From a virus: DNA of 22,860 nucleotides. Each line of letters opens with the position of its first letter. The first letter of the stretch is position 1. This document shows positions 436-22,860 of this stretch, one piece after another. The position numbers and the translations under genes are program-made. A model generated the notes under the pieces. The model saw nothing but the letters and a program-made list of their open reading frames with translations, was not told where the DNA came from and did no database searches. The DNA lies in the IMG/VR virus record IMGVR_UViG_3300017783_004048, positions 1 through 22,860 of that record, one strand, 5' to 3'.

Positions 436-879
436 ATGGCTTATTCTAAAAAAGTTTTAGACAGATTCGAAGCAGTAACTAATAATCCTGCCGCACATGG
501 AGTTGGAAGGTTTGATCCTAACGACCCTAATGTTGCTACAGGAATGACAGGTGCACCTGCTTGTGGAGATGTAATGAAACTCGATCTCAAATTAAATCCT
601 GAGACCGAAGAAATCGTTGATGTTAAATTTAAAACTTATGGTTGTGGTTCAGCAATCGCAAGTTCATCAATGTTTGTTGAGATGTTAATTGGTAAAACAG
701 TAGAAGAAGCAAAACTAATTAAAGATCGTGAAATCGCAGAAGCTTTAGAACTACCGGCTATTAAGATACATTGTTCTGTATTGGCAGAGGACTCAATTAA
801 GAAAGCAATTGAAGATTGGGAAGAAAAGAAAGCAGGTCGTAATGAATCGTGGATTGAGCGTCATACCAAAAGGACATAA
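436..879 (+). CDS. iscU: IscU-type Fe-S cluster assembly scaffold
   Basis: This 147-residue protein aligns closely with bacterial IscU. It contains GAPACGDVMKL (Cys43, Asp45), KTYGCGSAIASSS (Cys70) and KIHCSVLAED (His112, Cys113), which are the three cluster-ligand cysteines and the aspartate of the family. The segment LPAIK (106-110) corresponds to the LPPVK motif that binds the HscA chaperone in E. coli, so interaction with host Isc machinery is plausible. Differences are a few extra residues near position 15-22 and a longer charged C-terminus. IscU receives sulfur from IscS and hands assembled clusters to client proteins in the cytoplasm. No Shine-Dalgarno sequence is visible before 436. 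The start follows a T4-late-type box directly. No partner isc genes are in the window. Confidence 0.95.
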   Translation: MAYSKKVLDRFEAVTNNPAAHGVGRFDPNDPNVATGMTGAPACGDVMKLDLKLNPETEEIVDVKFKTYGCGSAIASSSMFVEMLIGKTVEEAKLIKDREIAEALELPAIKIHCSVLAEDSIKKAIEDWEEKKAGRNESWIERHTKRT

Positions 880-4220: not shown

Positions 4221-4483
4221 CACAATATGATGAAACAGTAGAGAAGCAAAGAGTTATGCTCGAAGCTGAAGAATGGTCGATGCACGTAAAGTCGATTCAT
4301 GTTCATTCTTTTAGTTCTATGTACTACGACGACCATCCTGAAGATACTGAAGGAAATAAAATGGTCACCGATGTAGAATACAATTGTGGATTAATTAAAA
4401 GGTCTCAAGGTGGAGATTTTGTTCGTAACTTTGGAAAAGAACTCAAAGGTGAACAATTATACGACCTGTATACAAGACAATGA
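4217..4483 (+). CDS. Small protein (88 aa), unknown function
   Basis: The ATG overlaps the ligase stop (ATGA), so it is likely translated by coupling. The acidic 88-residue sequence has a His-rich patch (HVKSIHVHSFSSMYYDDH, residues 23-40) that could bind metal, but no family is recognised. Its stop overlaps the start of the next small ORF in the same ATGA fashion. Confidence 0.75.
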   Translation: MTQYDETVEKQRVMLEAEEWSMHVKSIHVHSFSSMYYDDHPEDTEGNKMVTDVEYNCGLIKRSQGGDFVRNFGKELKGEQLYDLYTRQ

Positions 4484-4575
4484 TTAAAAAGTTTTTAAAC
4501 GATATTAAAGAAGAACTTAAATCTGCTCACTGGTTATGGTGGGTAGGACTATTTTGTTTATTGGTACTTTTATGA
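4480..4575 (+). CDS. 31-aa single-span membrane peptide, possible lysis accessory
   Basis: The ORF runs from ATG at 4480 to TGA at 4573-4575 and overlaps both neighbours by ATGA. The N-terminal half is charged (IKKFLNDIKEELK). The C-terminal half is a hydrophobic span rich in Trp and Leu (WLWWVGLFCLLVLL). That is the plan of a single-pass membrane peptide with a cytoplasmic N-terminus. Immediately downstream is a secreted cell-wall hydrolase, so a holin-like or regulator-of-lysis role is possible (inference from position only). It is too short to be assigned by homology. Confidence 0.6.
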   Translation: MIKKFLNDIKEELKSAHWLWWVGLFCLLVLL

Positions 4576-5078
4576 TTAAATACATATCAGCAGCAAGCGT
4601 ATTGCTTGTATCAGTATATGCCTATGCAGTAGATTATGATTATGTCACTACTCAAGATGAACATTGTATGGCAAAGAATATCTATCACGAATCTCGTTCT
4701 GAAAACTTAGCAGGTAAATATGCCGTTGCTGATGTTGTTTTAAATCGTGTACGTGACGATAGATACCCAAACTCTGTCTGTTCAGTTGTATATCAAGGTA
4801 AACATAAACCTTCTTGGAAAGACTCAGGTAAACTTGTACCTATAAGAAATGCATGTCAATTCAGTTGGTATTGCGATGGTAAGTCTGATGACGCCATGGA
4901 TGGTGATGCTTGGGCTGATGCATTGTATATTTCTTATCAGATAATTAATGAAGGTAAGCATCGCGGAATCACAGAAGGAGCAACTCATTATCATACGACT
5001 TGGGTTGATCCGTATTGGGCTCCATCTTTACAACAAGTAGGAACGATAGGATCTCATATCTTCTACCGTGCAGACTGA
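4572..5078 (+). CDS. SleB-type cell-wall hydrolase, candidate endolysin
   Basis: The start at 4572 overlaps the preceding stop (ATGA). It gives a 168-residue protein with an N-terminal hydrophobic segment (ISAASVLLVSVYAYA) ending in AYA, a probable signal peptide or signal-arrest-release anchor. The hydrolase domain shows NIYHESRSE (Glu40 is the likely catalytic acid), CQFSWYCDG (95-103) and ATHYHTTWVDPYW (137-149), all typical of the SleB/CwlJ family of peptidoglycan lytic enzymes. It would act on the cell wall from the periplasm. An earlier in-frame start at 4536 would add 12 residues before the hydrophobic segment and is less likely. It probably serves as the lysin, with the 31-residue peptide just upstream. 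Confidence 0.88.
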   Translation: MIKYISAASVLLVSVYAYAVDYDYVTTQDEHCMAKNIYHESRSENLAGKYAVADVVLNRVRDDRYPNSVCSVVYQGKHKPSWKDSGKLVPIRNACQFSWYCDGKSDDAMDGDAWADALYISYQIINEGKHRGITEGATHYHTTWVDPYWAPSLQQVGTIGSHIFYRAD

Positions 5079-12678: not shown

Positions 12679-13203
12679 ATGAACGATAAACAATTAATAC
12701 AAGCTGCCTTGATGTTAGCCATTCGTGCGCATGAAGGACAACGACGAAAGTATACCGGAGAACCTTACTCTGTACATCCTATCGGCGTTTCAAAAATTGT
12801 AGAAACAGTTGACCATACACCAGAGATGGTAGCTGCTGCTTTATTGCATGATGTTGTTGAAGATACTCCTGTAACATTTACAGAGATTAAAGATACCTTC
12901 GGAACAACGGTAGCAGAGTATGTTCATTACTGCACAAACGTTTCAGAGCAATCTGACGGTAACAGATCCTTCCGTAAAAAGATGGATGCCGATCATTTTG
13001 CGATGGGTCCTGCTGAAAGTCAAACGATAAAGATTGCCGACTTAATTCACAACAGTCAAACAATCATTCCAAACGACCCTAAGTTTTTTCATAAAGCTTA
13101 CAAGTACGAAAAACAGTACTTATTGGATGTCTTAGTACTTGCAGACCCAATACTCAAGAGTCAGGCTCAATCGATGCTTGACCAGGCGTGGGATCCGTCT
13201 TAA
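12679..13203 (+). CDS. HD-domain hydrolase like MESH1/SpoT (putative (p)ppGpp hydrolase)
   Basis: The 174-residue protein consists almost wholly of the RelA/SpoT-type HD domain. RRKYTGEPYSVHP contains His33, LLHDVVEDTP has His57, Asp58, Glu61 and Asp62, and IKIADLIHNS has Asp121. All metal and catalytic positions of small alarmone hydrolases are present and there is no synthetase domain. MESH1-like enzymes remove pyrophosphate from the 3' end of (p)ppGpp and, in animals, dephosphorylate NADPH. A role in lowering host alarmone during infection is plausible but untested. Its start coincides with the predicted transcription start, so the mRNA should be leaderless. Confidence 0.88.
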   Translation: MNDKQLIQAALMLAIRAHEGQRRKYTGEPYSVHPIGVSKIVETVDHTPEMVAAALLHDVVEDTPVTFTEIKDTFGTTVAEYVHYCTNVSEQSDGNRSFRKKMDADHFAMGPAESQTIKIADLIHNSQTIIPNDPKFFHKAYKYEKQYLLDVLVLADPILKSQAQSMLDQAWDPS

Positions 13204-19068: not shown

Positions 19069-19376
19069 AATTTGTGAAAAGAGCAATTATCTTTACCGTA
19101 GATAGTTGGAGATTAATTATGGATGCAAAGTATAATCCGTTAAGGCATATACCAGATCCTTCATTACAAACATACTTTATGATGGTATTGTTTGTTATGT
19201 GGAGCGCATTCTTTGGAATGGTTGCGATGTTCTATATGGGCTACATGGGATATTCAATTCCTGTAAGTATAATTGTGCATATGTCAATTCTTGTACCTAT
19301 CGCAATTACAAATGGTGTCTTTATTGATGCTGAAAGAAACGGTTCAAAATGGTTACAGCAATGGAGAAAGAAATGA
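19065..19376 (+). CDS. Two-span membrane protein (103 aa)
   Basis: The start overlaps the preceding stop (ATGA). After a basic N-terminus there are two hydrophobic spans, about residues 38-60 (YFMMVLFVMWSAFFGMVAMF) and 65-87 (IPVSIIVHMSILVPIAI), joined by a short loop with Gly and Tyr. The C-terminus is charged (ERNGSKWLQQWRKK). This hairpin topology is shared by some holins, but no lysis gene is adjacent. The function is unknown. Confidence 0.75.
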   Translation: MKFVKRAIIFTVDSWRLIMDAKYNPLRHIPDPSLQTYFMMVLFVMWSAFFGMVAMFYMGYMGYSIPVSIIVHMSILVPIAITNGVFIDAERNGSKWLQQWRKK

Positions 19377-19756
19377 GTGCAATGGATAACGCAATAAAAG
19401 AAGACATCTTAAGAGATTACTTCGAAGCATTTTCAAATAAAGATGTTGATACTTTGGAGACAATGTTCTCTAAGGATATTCAACTAACTGATAGCTTTGG
19501 TCATTGGACAGGTATAGAAGATGTAATTGAGGCTAACAAGACGATCTTTAAAAACTGTTTGCGAATAACCGCGATCATAGATGAAATTGTGATAGAAGGA
19601 GACTCAGCTTGTGCTATTATTGATATTGAAATTATGACACAAGGTAGTGATCCTTCAAACGACTTTAGAGAGAATCATCAAACACTTAAGGTAATAGATT
19701 ACTTTGTATTTGATACTGATCTTAAGATCAGAAAAATATCTGCATATAAGCAGTAG
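19373..19756 (+). CDS. SnoaL/NTF2-like fold protein (127 aa)
   Basis: The start at 19373 overlaps the preceding stop (ATGA), with GGAG upstream. An in-frame ATG at 19349 lies deeper in the previous gene and is less likely. The pattern DILRDYFEAFSNKDVDTLETMFSKDIQL in two segments, followed by FGHWTGIEDVIEANK and alternating strands, is typical of SnoaL-like NTF2 folds. These form a cone that binds small molecules or acts as an isomerase or hydrolase. The substrate is unknown. Confidence 0.78.
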   Translation: MSAMDNAIKEDILRDYFEAFSNKDVDTLETMFSKDIQLTDSFGHWTGIEDVIEANKTIFKNCLRITAIIDEIVIEGDSACAIIDIEIMTQGSDPSNDFRENHQTLKVIDYFVFDTDLKIRKISAYKQ

Positions 19757-19764
19757 GAGATATT

Positions 19765-19941
19765 ATGGACGAAAGAATCTTAAAAGAGATCCGTCTATCA
19801 AGACAACTCGCAAGAGAAATTCAATGGGTACTTGATTCTGGTGGTGTTATGCCAGTTCAGATTCATAACATGTATAAGCCATTGAAAAAGTTTTATGACC
19901 AATGTGTTGCTGACGAAGAACTTGAATTTTACGGAAAGTAA
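19765..19941 (+). CDS. Small protein (58 aa), unknown function
   Basis: The ORF runs from ATG at 19765, preceded by AGGAGATATT, to TAA at 19939-19941. The helical 58-residue product contains RLSRQLAREIQWVLDSGG, then PVQIHNMYKPLKKFYDQC. No family is recognised. The ribosome site is one of the best in the region. Confidence 0.7.
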   Translation: MDERILKEIRLSRQLAREIQWVLDSGGVMPVQIHNMYKPLKKFYDQCVADEELEFYGK

Positions 19942-19998
19942 AATATATCATATTTTTATTAAGCATTATCAATTCTGGTTATATATACTTTTATAGGG

Positions 19999-20017
19999 AA
20001 AAGAAAAATTCTTTTTT
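19999..20017 (+). terminator. AT-rich hairpin with T-run, weak terminator candidate
   Basis: AAAAGAA (19999-20005), loop AAA, TTCTTTT (20009-20015) with further T residues to 20017. The stem has one GC pair only. The 92-base gap 19942-20033 otherwise shows nothing recognisable. Confidence 0.3.
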
Positions 20018-20033
20018 CGTAACTGAGATAAAT

Positions 20034-20126
20034 ATGAACTTTGAAAAATTTAGAGATGGAATAGAATTATCAGCATTAGTTGGTATATTCATGCTGTCAC
20101 TATTAGGGGTAAATCCAAATGTTTAA
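20034..20126 (+). CDS. 30-aa hydrophobic peptide, unknown
   Basis: The ORF runs from ATG at 20034 to TAA at 20124-20126. The product has a charged N-terminus (MNFEKFRDGIE) and a hydrophobic C-terminal half (LSALVGIFMLSLLGVNP), consistent with membrane insertion. No ribosome site stands out. GATAAATA at 20027-20034, one base off the late box, overlaps the ATG. It overlaps the next peptide by 8 bases. Confidence 0.45.
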   Translation: MNFEKFRDGIELSALVGIFMLSLLGVNPNV

Positions 20127-20202
20127 AAGAGGTTGGGTAAAGACATTCTTTAAGTATTGGGTTCAACCCTGGCATCCAAAGGGGTGTATTAAAAACTCGT
20201 AA
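20119..20202 (+). CDS. 27-aa basic, Trp-rich peptide, unknown
   Basis: The ORF runs from ATG at 20119 to TAA at 20200-20202. The sequence MFKRGWVKTFFKYWVQPWHP is cationic and aromatic. It is followed by KGCIKNS. AGGGG lies 7 bases upstream. Such composition suits membrane or nucleic-acid contact, and no homologue is recognised. Confidence 0.45.
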   Translation: MFKRGWVKTFFKYWVQPWHPKGCIKNS

Positions 20203-20217
20203 CAATAGGAGAGGAAC

Positions 20218-20328
20218 ATGAGATCGTTCGCAAAGCGGATTGTTCTCAATAGTGAAATCTGTATCGAGTGCGTACTAATTTCCGTCTTTATGGGAATGAC
20301 GTTTTACAGCATAAGTACGATTGCATAA
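20218..20328 (+). CDS. 36-aa membrane peptide, unknown
   Basis: The ORF runs from ATG at 20218, with a strong ribosome site AGGAGAGG, to TAA at 20326-20328. The basic N-terminus (MRSFAKRIVLN) is followed by a hydrophobic stretch with two cysteines (ICIECVLISVFMGMTFYSIS). It is the last plus-strand gene before the terminator at 20353. Confidence 0.55.
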   Translation: MRSFAKRIVLNSEICIECVLISVFMGMTFYSISTIA

Positions 20329-20352
20329 CCTGAGTGCAATCCAAACCGGTTG

Positions 20353-20378
20353 AAGGTGGTCGAAAGGCCACCTTTTTT
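20353..20378 (+). terminator. Intrinsic terminator ending the plus-strand block
   Basis: GGTGGTC (20355-20361), loop GAAA, and GGCCACC (20366-20372) pair over seven bases with one G-U. AA/TT extends the stem, and six T residues follow at 20373-20378. This is a textbook rho-independent terminator. Its T-run overlaps the stop codon of the minus-strand gene. Confidence 0.92.
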
Positions 20379-21006
20379 ATCTTTTAAAACAGCGTGGGTT
20401 TCTTTTTGCTTCTTTTGTAACCTGAAAGTTATTCTGTACTACAATTCCTGTCGTATATGACGATACAGTTTGAAACGTACCCCACTCTCTTGGATAGGCA
20501 CCATAGATACTTTCTAATAAACTAATAATTGTAACTTTAAAAAGTATAAGCTTTAAGAGAGATGGATCTTTACCAACTATTGGATTTGCTTCTGAGATAC
20601 AATCATACTTTAATCCTTTATATGTTGAAAAGACATCGAGAGCGTGTATGAATAGAAACTCAGATTGATAGTTAAAGTCTCGTGATTGATTAAACTCTAA
20701 GTGTGATAGATCAATGCTTTCTTTATGTTGCCATTTAGGATCATTTTGCAGAGCATCAAACGATGGAAGCATATCAGGTCCATACGGTAAATTAACAATT
20801 GCACCATTTGGCATTATCCTTGCTTTACCAACAACGACTCTTTTTACAACTTCTTTATTATATGGTACGGTCATACCATTGCGTATTAGAAATTTCTGAG
20901 TATCGTTGAGACTTATATAAGTTAATTCGTCAGGTATATAAGCGTATGCAGGTAAGGCAATTAAGCCTATGATTAAACTACTTAGTAGTCGCGATAAAAA
21001 CTCCAT
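20377..21006 (-). CDS. Secreted or membrane protein with DUF5658-like C-terminus (209 aa)
   Basis: The N-terminus (SRLLSSLIIGLIALPAYAY) looks like a signal peptide ending in AYA. A polar region of about 90 residues follows. The C-terminal part has FIHALDVFSTYKGLKYDC, then EANPIVGKDPSLLKLILFKV. This is the pattern of DUF5658-like membrane proteins: a D-x-x-ST-x-x-G helix, an EANP turn, then a second helix (recalled family pattern). The function is unknown. Its first 29 bases overlap the end of the cyclase gene, so the two are almost certainly one operon. No promoter for it is seen inside the window. The short GIVVQNNF stretch near the end is not clearly membrane-spanning. Confidence 0.78.
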   Translation of the reverse strand: MEFLSRLLSSLIIGLIALPAYAYIPDELTYISLNDTQKFLIRNGMTVPYNKEVVKRVVVGKARIMPNGAIVNLPYGPDMLPSFDALQNDPKWQHKESIDLSHLEFNQSRDFNYQSEFLFIHALDVFSTYKGLKYDCISEANPIVGKDPSLLKLILFKVTIISLLESIYGAYPREWGTFQTVSSYTTGIVVQNNFQVTKEAKRNPRCFKR

Positions 21007-22860
21007 TCCAATCCTTGGGTAAATCTTGCGTCTTCATGTATTCACAACGCTCAATCCACATATTGTAGTATCCCTTCATTTGACCTTCGAAGCATTCCAT
21101 TAAATCATTGCATATTTTAATTGCTTTATCAAAATCTTGTTTCTGATAATTCATATGCATATCATGGTGCATCTGAGCCGGTTTAATATATTTATCTTTA
21201 TTTAAGTCAAGTACTGTATGTATTCCAACACCAACTGTTTTACCTTTCACTGCAAGATCATCAACCTTAAGGAAAAAGAAATCATTAGGACTACAACGAT
21301 TAACTGTTTCTTCTCCTACTAATAAAAGACAACCATATTCTTTACATTTAGATTCGATCCTTGCAGCAGTTGATACTGCATCTCCAAGAATGTCGTAACT
21401 GTGTCGTGATGTACTTCCCATTTCACCAACATAACCAAGACCGCTATTGATGCCAGCGCCCATACCAATGGGTGGTCTACCTTGCTTAGTAATATCTTCA
21501 TTAAATTTCTCTACCGCTCGTAACATATTAATACCAGTCATCACCGCAGTTTTAGCGTGGTCGGTATCTTCCATTGGAGCATTATGTATATGCATACTTG
21601 CGTCCCCAATGTATTTGATAATCATTCCATTTGCATCTAGAACAGGTTGTGTAATAGCGTCCATATAACCATTCATTAAAGTTGTAAGTCCTTTAACGTC
21701 ATTTCCGAAACTTTCGCCTAATGGTGTAAACCCTCGAAGATCACTAAAGACAATACTTACATCTTTTTTCATTCCGTCCTTGACAAGCTCTGGGTTTTGT
21801 TGTAAAATAGTAACAACTTCTGGAGAACAATACCCCGCGAACTGTTTCATGATTTCGCGCTTTTCCAAAAATGTTAAATAGTATTTGTTGAATGAAGATT
21901 GTGCAAAAACCACTAAGGAAGCTAATGAAACCAAAGATGCATCAACAAAGGTTAAGGAGGAAGACCAAAACCAGTGACTCACTCCGTATCCGGAACCAAC
22001 GAGAAGAAGACTTGTTATCACCCCAAGAGTTATGGGAAAAGCATAGACCGCTACAAGGATTCCTAGACAGCATAGGACCAGAAAGAAAAGCTCGAATATT
22101 GACTTCCAGTCGGGAATCGTTATTTGAACGCCTGAAAGGACGGTCTGAATTAACTGGGCTTGAACTTCGTGGGGATACATTGCACCCGTTGGGGTTGGTA
22201 CTGGATTAGAATAGCCTTCTGCGGTTATTCCAAAGACTAATACTTTACCACTAGGTAATGGTTCTGTTATTGACTGTGATGGAAATTTATTCCAAAAAGC
22301 AATTGGTATTTCGGCAAAACTATTTGTTACGATAGGATCTTGACGACCCATACGAATCCATTCAACACCATTGGTGCCTACTTTCATTTGATAACTTGGT
22401 TCTCCTGAATACACTCGTAGAGCGTCGAGCGCGATAGATGGATAGGGATTCCCGGCTGCTTTAACGACAAGAGGCGATCTTCGCACAACTCCTGTTGGTT
22501 CATCAGGTATAGCAACGGTGGCGCCAACACCAAAAGCGTAATTAGACAGATCATCAATAGGATATAATAAACCCGGAAATTCGTAAAGCCAGTTTTCATC
22601 TTGTTCTCCAAAAGTAGCAACACCAACAAAGGTACCAACTCCGTCTGATGTTTGTTGTGATGGAGCAGACGCAAGGACGACAGCTTTTTCTGCCATTGCT
22701 TCCGCAAGTAAATGATCTTCTTTAAATCTATCTTGTTCTGAATAAATTACATTTAATACATATAAAGAATCAGCAGGACCGTTCCGTATATAGTCAGCAA
22801 CAGAACCACGGGGCCACGGATACTGACCTTTGGCAGAGATTGCTTTTTCGTCGATGTTGA
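20978..22860 (-). CDS. CHASE2-domain class III adenylate cyclase (5' end outside window)
   Basis: The frame is open to the window edge: 54 more codons precede the Met at 22696 and contain IDEKAISAKGQYPWPRGSVA, typical of CHASE2 sensor domains. That Met is therefore internal. Counting from it, the CHASE2 region reaches about residue 195. Hydrophobic spans follow at about 202-220, 221-238 and 250-267, and then the cyclase domain. Its metal sites are Asp319 (VFSDLRGF) and Asp365 (IKYIGDA), the adenine-selecting pair is Lys361 and Asp435 (YDILGD), and Arg446 is present. The usual transition-state Asn is Ser442. The C-terminal tail (about 505-572) with RCEY..., DWNGV and TK at the end resembles the family's usual tail. 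The enzyme would make cAMP in the cytoplasm under control of a periplasmic sensor domain. A phage setting is unusual. Confidence 0.92.
   Translation of the reverse strand, partial: NIDEKAISAKGQYPWPRGSVADYIRNGPADSLYVLNVIYSEQDRFKEDHLLAEAMAEKAVVLASAPSQQTSDGVGTFVGVATFGEQDENWLYEFPGLLYPIDDLSNYAFGVGATVAIPDEPTGVVRRSPLVVKAAGNPYPSIALDALRVYSGEPSYQMKVGTNGVEWIRMGRQDPIVTNSFAEIPIAFWNKFPSQSITEPLPSGKVLVFGITAEGYSNPVPTPTGAMYPHEVQAQLIQTVLSGVQITIPDWKSIFELFFLVLCCLGILVAVYAFPITLGVITSLLLVGSGYGVSHWFWSSSLTFVDASLVSLASLVVFAQSSFNKYYLTFLEKREIMKQFAGYCSPEVVTILQQNPELVKDGMKKDVSIVFSDLRGFTPLGESFGNDVKGLTTLMNGYMDAITQPVLDANGMIIKYIGDASMHIHNAPMEDTDHAKTAVMTGINMLRAVEKFNEDITKQGRPPIGMGAGINSGLGYVGEMGSTSRHSYDILGDAVSTAARIESKCKEYGCLLLVGEETVNRCSPNDFFFLKVDDLAVKGKTVGVGIHTVLDLNKDKYIKPAQMHHDMHMNYQKQDFDKAIKICNDLMECFEGQMKGYYNMWIERCEYMKTQDLPKDWNGVFIATTK

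Follow-up and report, generated by a model that had tools for sequence, protein, structure and literature searches.

The window (the whole stretch of viral DNA analysed, 22,860 bp and the entire IMG/VR record) ends in two minus-strand genes, encoding a CHASE2-containing class III nucleotide cyclase and a DUF5658-like exported protein (Table 1). These genes appear to close a curli (type VIII secretion) operon carried by a T4-like marine phage, and our preferred reading is that a late-expressed inner-membrane sensor cyclase is coupled to a phage curli/FecR envelope module. We put the probability of this explanation, taken as a whole, at around 0.5. Among the points that count against it, the curli genes and the late promoter lie outside the contig and are taken from relatives, and the cyclase has Ser in place of the transition-state Asn.

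A phage curli/type VIII secretion system (T8SS) module with FecR and an adenylate cyclase is described for pelagiphages in passages of Wittmers et al. 2022 (PMC9599517). As the operon of the window's relatives matches the module of those passages, the window pair can be regarded as a new example of a known module. The same passages offer evidence that the module is expressed, infer that it came from alphaproteobacteria, and describe phage curli operons as widespread in ocean viruses. Curli genes are also discussed in PMC9004378 and PMC7029224, where the cyclase is never mentioned. Set beside the published passages, a sequence-only reading of the window was half right: the enzyme is phage-borne and probably cAMP-making and periplasm-sensing, but it appears to belong to a curli module already in print rather than to act as a cAMP weapon of its own.

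Table 1. Coordinates of features in the window and in related loci (L numbers)
Feature	Position	Strand	Remarks
IscU/NifU_N-like protein	436-879	+	E 4e-41
Sigma-70-like repeat family	1715, 2852, 7581, 9093, 13258, 13665, 14563, 15621, 17538	+	51-87 nt each
HD_4 protein	12679-13203	+	HD..ED and K.AD..HN motifs
SnoaL_2-like small protein gene	19349..19756	+	final + strand gene of notable size ahead of the junction
Rho-independent terminator-like stem-loop	20352..20375	+	10-bp stem, T-run
DUF5658-like exported protein gene	21006..20377	-	209 aa; start overlaps cyclase stop by 29 bp
CHASE2 + class III nucleotide cyclase gene	22858..20978	-	626 aa; 5' end cut by contig end
Paired small membrane proteins	L011:4009-4305, 4310-4579		example of the pair before csgF
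hemE	L005:5657-6598; also L006, L007, L010-L014, L016		uroporphyrinogen decarboxylase
hemC	L016:239-1066; L143:12937-13779		porphobilinogen deaminase; L143 assigned by close sequence likeness only
Ferredoxin or IscA-type Fe-S protein	L011:12429-12758; L014:12518-12844		just 3' of the DUF5658-like gene

A predicted membrane sensor cyclase of class III

The cyclase frame comprises a CHASE2 domain, transmembrane segments and a class III catalytic domain, in that order. Both domains score well over their Pfam cut-offs (CHASE2, 78.3 bits, E 9e-22, cut-off 26.3; Guanylate_cyc, 62.2 bits, E 6e-17, cut-off 21.9), which confirms the CHASE2-cyclase assignment made from the letters of the minus strand. 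Transmembrane helices follow CHASE2 in a structure model, at least two of them backed by hydropathy, and relatives have a hydrophobic N-terminal stretch that is cut off in the window. The protein thereby has the make-up of a CHASE2 receptor, a domain over cut-off with flanking helices. With full-length relatives measuring 681 aa, the window frame lacks about 55 residues at its N-terminus; as the window is the whole record, the truncation is no more than the end of the contig. The frame aligns to solved cyclases, e.g. 6fht and 3r5g, and ends in a conserved C-terminal tail of ~75 aa. A structure model of the cyclase domain was set aside as unreliable, with block-mean pLDDT values of 37-60 in the active site. 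Judged by its domains, the window enzyme is a real membrane sensor cyclase of class III, predicted to sit in the inner membrane with CHASE2 in the periplasm. A role in periplasmic sensing is plausible, and the large conserved sensor implies that the output of the cyclase is regulated.

Active-site residues suggest cAMP as the product

The metal-binding Asp residues of the window frame are D373 and D419, and the catalytic Arg is R500. ATP-specific cyclases carry Lys and Asp at the purine-specifying positions, where bacterial forms may have Thr/Ser, and a transition-state Asn is usual in class III cyclases without being obligatory. The window enzyme has K415 and D489, the adenylate-cyclase pattern, and S496 at the position of the usual Asn. 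Going by these residues, the product is probably cAMP.

Phage cyclases form two clades, split from each other and from the sampled bacteria with SH-aLRT values of 100 each, and the window cyclase falls on the phage side, in the type B clade, rather than among bacteria. In the HTVC008M type, all 77 readable sequences combine a Ser as second substrate residue with the usual transition-state Asn, a combination also found in 29/29 sampled alphaproteobacterial homologues. In the window/Melnitz type the two positions are Asp and Ser, which holds for 82 of the 83 phage sequences of the first set, the exception being HTVC008M itself; "phage-only", as applied to this type, means that the samples searched held no bacterial case. 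Both metal Asp residues, the Lys and the Arg are invariant in 83/83. Values of dN/dS of 0.05-0.13 in the catalytic domain and 0.13-0.16 over the whole cyclase gene point to strong purifying selection. Bacterial CHASE2 cyclases (the S. meliloti CyaD type and the Campylobacterota FecR-CHASE2 cluster) share the domain layout and a homologous C-terminal region with the window enzyme, but are at most 35% identical to it in the alphaproteobacterial sample, carry Ser/Asn and are set apart by a fully supported branch. FecR is sometimes adjacent to them (4 of the loci inspected); a CHASE2 cyclase with FecR is a bacterial gene cluster too (PMC9239204).

The replacement of an Asn that all sampled alphaproteobacterial homologues retain could mean that catalysis has been lost and that the protein serves the curli/FecR module as a membrane scaffold or receptor. 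We consider this rather unlikely, because all metal and substrate residues and the Arg are conserved and the catalytic domain is under strong purifying selection; a dead enzyme fits such conservation of sequence less well. Moreover, Ma1120 of Mycobacterium avium has the same Lys/Asp pair, retained Arg and spacing (Asp+7, Arg+4) as the window enzyme, with Ala where the window has Ser and no close relationship shown between the two. Ma1120 naturally lacks the Asn yet is active, and inserting Asn destroys its activity (PMC4215837). Thus, S496 does not exclude the window enzyme from the class III cyclases.

The joint change from Ser/Asn to Asp/Ser in a phage-only clade, together with weak PADLOC matches to PycC, could also suit type B cyclases whose product, a different cyclic nucleotide or a signal in competition with the host's, jams host cNMP-gated defence, e.g. 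Pycsar. Lys and Asp are, however, the usual ATP-specifying pair (PMC4215837), and the PycC score (58 bits) is no better than that of the general cyclase model (62 bits); the Pycsar matches reflect generic class III similarity. Pycsar cyclases share the class III catalytic domain with the window enzyme but are paired with effectors; no effector gene was seen here, and PF00027, the cNMP-binding domain, had no match in Melnitz, in HTVC008M or in any of seven related viral contigs. Such a counter-defence role is very unlikely, and the interference with host defence suggested by the sequence-only reading found no backing. With no PF00027 match in these phages and contigs, a phage-encoded cAMP receptor was likewise rejected; any receptor would be a host protein.

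Relatives place the pair in a curli/FecR operon

The operon context of the window phage rests on relatives that are 78-91% identical in the cyclase, the window itself ending inside that gene. Relatives of the cyclase were found on 470 stretches of viral contigs, the best 80 of which were fetched. Curlin and FecR genes lie upstream of the cyclase in 37/37 loci with at least 6.5 kb of upstream sequence, CsgG in 35 and CsgF in 33 of them; as these loci are mutually related, the counts should not be taken as so many independent events. Pfam matches obtained in relatives of the window are CsgG (2e-53), CsgF (1e-14), FecR (1e-8) and, weakly, Curlin_rpt (2e-4). The gene order of the window clade (L002-L016) is two small membrane proteins, csgF, csgG, curlin, FecR, curlin, an ORF of ~103 aa, often hemE, the cyclase and the DUF5658-like gene; as far as the cyclase, the annotations of the isolates Melnitz and HTVC008M show this order too. 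Most loci have the paired small membrane proteins of ~90-100 aa before csgF, and neither gave a Pfam match over cut-off. Passages of PMC9599517 report histidine kinases at that place in their phages; the small proteins seen here are too short to be kinases.

The csgF-csgG-csgA/B-FecR-csgA/B-AC order is shared with the pelagiphage module, in which the cyclase is likewise the last canonical gene (HTVC008M; PMC7029224; passages of PMC9599517). The HTVC008M-type cyclase, of ~611 aa, lacks the C-terminal tail of the window type, and the window clade adds to the module, as those passages present it, a DUF5658-like gene and often hemE. The Methylophilales phage Melnitz (PMC9004378; gp104) has a type B cyclase and the operon order of the window relatives; unlike the window clade, it lacks both the DUF5658-like gene and hemE beside the cyclase, and its operon is followed by convergent tail genes whereas that of the window faces an early block. 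Neither the DUF5658-like gene nor hemE appears in the main-text passages of PMC9599517 that describe the module. The Asp/Ser type, the recurrent DUF5658-like gene, the upstream hemE and the T4-type late promoter described below are apparently unreported, modest additions that make the function testable. The window adds a clade that conserves both the cyclase and its DUF5658-like partner and frequently carries hemE next to the cyclase.

Promoter motifs suggest late transcription

The T4 late promoter core TATAAATA stands 13-45 nt before the first gene in 10/10 operon starts examined from the window clade, of which about seven are distinct, and in Melnitz the distance to the first operon gene is 7 nt. 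It is found upstream of only 4% of control genes, and operon starts in other clades mostly lack the exact motif. On a 156-kb T4-like viral contig that carries the same cyclase/DUF5658-like pair, the majority of TATAAATA sites share their strand with the structural genes and the curli operon, and sigma-70-like sites are mainly on the opposite strand. The curli-cyclase operon is apparently transcribed late, to judge from a motif read in relatives, the operon start lying outside the window; the module would then belong to the final stage of infection. This core stands only 7-13 nt before the first ATG in L002, L005, L008 and L082, and at ~45 nt in other relatives; at the shorter distance a late transcript could have next to no leader. 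In the window itself, a sigma-70-like promoter recurs at the early genes on the + strand; its copies contain TTGACA...TATAAT in near-perfect form and have a TGGTTGTATAAATTAAATTAATGGAG-like tail in common, and this repeat family is probably the phage's early promoter set.

These data bear on the alternative that the cyclase floods the host with cAMP and reprogrammes its catabolism or global regulation independently of curli. The K/D residues and the intact metal site would fit ATP cyclisation, and other metabolic genes are present, namely an HD_4 alarmone-hydrolase-like gene in the window and hemE/hemC in relatives. Against this stand the curli/FecR linkage in every informative locus, a promoter motif that is late rather than early, and a large conserved sensor that implies regulated output. 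We therefore hold this alternative to be doubtful, early host takeover fitting operon and promoter less well. The stand-alone device for setting host cAMP that the sequence-only reading envisaged is likewise unsupported: relatives show the cyclase at the far end of a curli/FecR secretion operon, apparently a late one.

The DUF5658-like neighbour and the junction

The neighbour of the cyclase has a signal-peptide-like N-terminus and a C-terminal three-helix domain, the latter confidently modelled. Its match to DUF5658 (PF18902) is real but, at 22.7 bits, below the gathering cut-off of 25.2, so that the family name is kept as "DUF5658-like" only; a family member at L028 passes the cut-off with 27.5 bits. 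A fold search with the model gave no match at E < 1. Nine positions are invariant in 24 homologues (D124, C136, E139, N141, P142, P148, K157, N193, C206), and the protein diverges much faster than the cyclase. Together, the invariant positions, the signal-like N-terminus and the three-helix domain suggest an exported envelope protein. Its gene adjoins the cyclase on the downstream side in 15/15 window-clade relatives and lies upstream of it in a second clade. The 29-base overlap claimed for the window is exact, and a search of viral contigs found the same pair with the same overlap in 13/15 close relatives.

The stem-loop to the left of the pair faces the + strand genes and closes the phage block between convergent transcription units, bearing out the single terminator first proposed. 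That block is a T4-like early one, with DNA ligase, a RuvC-like resolvase, an exonuclease, PhoH and a nucleotide-sugar epimerase. A homologue of the SnoaL_2-like protein opposes the same curli-cyclase operon in several close relatives. From 20377 to ~21220, that is, over the C-terminal tail of the cyclase and the DUF5658-like gene, the window is nearly identical to L005 (dS 0.04-0.11), as against a dS of ~0.7 in the rest of the cyclase; on this divergence pattern the segment is a recent recombination tract.

Phage origin of the pair

CHASE2 cyclases and curli genes are of bacterial type, and Pseudomonadota commonly carry the homologous family. Another source of the pair would be bacterial DNA or an assembly join near 20380, which we find scarcely credible. 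The window aligns collinearly over its full length with a 54.9-kb viral contig, at 85% identity over 19357-22860, junction included, and the 156-kb contig also encodes tail sheath, tail tube, clamp, clamp loader, RNR and baseplate genes. The tetranucleotide distance of 20377-22860 is 0.204, within the range of the other window segments (0.150-0.238), so the composition check advised at the outset raised no suspicion; with the collinear contigs it rules out an assembly join or contamination. The recurring 29-bp overlap and the presence of the operon in the isolates Melnitz and HTVC008M add to the case. Among annotated phages the cyclase matches Melnitz at 51% identity over the full frame and HTVC008M at 33%, and it matches PHROG 35576 (E 4e-132).

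A scan of 84,980 species genomes with two short peptide patterns gave just three close matches, all on small phage-like MAG contigs where many genes have homologues on viral contigs, and apart from one of those MAGs, 289 alphaproteobacterial and 398 pseudomonadotan genomes yielded more distant homologues only. A bacterial origin of the close subfamily was rejected on these scans, and the pair is phage-borne, as first supposed. The curli-cyclase operon also occurs on contigs binned as bacterial MAGs, L085 and L086 (Rhodobacteraceae Water_Bin34) and L087 (a Pirellulales MAG), which are probably misbinned phage DNA. Two matches to an Acinetobacter "phage" (H7/H8) were disregarded: the contig CAKLQF020000009.1, labelled "Acinetobacter phage MD-2021a", surrounds its cyclase with isc, hsc and mfd genes, like a piece of bacterial chromosome. 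As a clue to the host, tRNAs were absent from the window and the 156-kb contig, and the few in L002, L007 and L014 were non-diagnostic. NCBIfam and Rfam searches returned nothing that altered the reading.

A possible late envelope circuit

We know of no established function for phage curli operons. Under our preferred reading, the phage would, late in infection, equip the host envelope with CsgG/F pores and curlin-like fibres, and the periplasmic CHASE2 domain would read the state of this module. FecR and the DUF5658-like protein would be candidate partners of CHASE2. CHASE2 would then switch the cytoplasmic cyclase to produce cAMP, which may tune the last phase of infection, either the surface fibres or the timing of release. 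Melnitz cultures showed no clumping (PMC9004378), which counts against this reading. An unlikely alternative would have the type B cyclases as a distinct, phage-evolved signalling enzyme with a rewired active site that forms, with FecR and the DUF5658-like protein, a late envelope sensor timing fibre display or lysis; it would report curli/T8SS assembly or the state of the host envelope through cAMP or another cyclic nucleotide. An envelope sensor, should it prove true, would mean that the phage brings along its own second-messenger circuit for the late stage of infecting abundant marine hosts.

Haem, Fe-S and alarmone-related genes

The hemE gene (PF01208, E 7e-65) lies upstream of the cyclase in 9/15 window-clade loci and usually overlaps its start by 8 bp; hemC is found near the operon in two loci. 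We found no report of hemE or hemC as phage genes in the literature, a related phage-gene paper being concerned with alaS/hemO (PMC11480375). Fe-S proteins are encoded in the window and just beyond the DUF5658-like gene in two relatives (Table 1), a theme of phage Fe-S/haem supply beside FecR. In the early block, the HD_4 protein has motifs like those of SpoT/Mesh1 alarmone hydrolases and is a possible phage ppGpp hydrolase.
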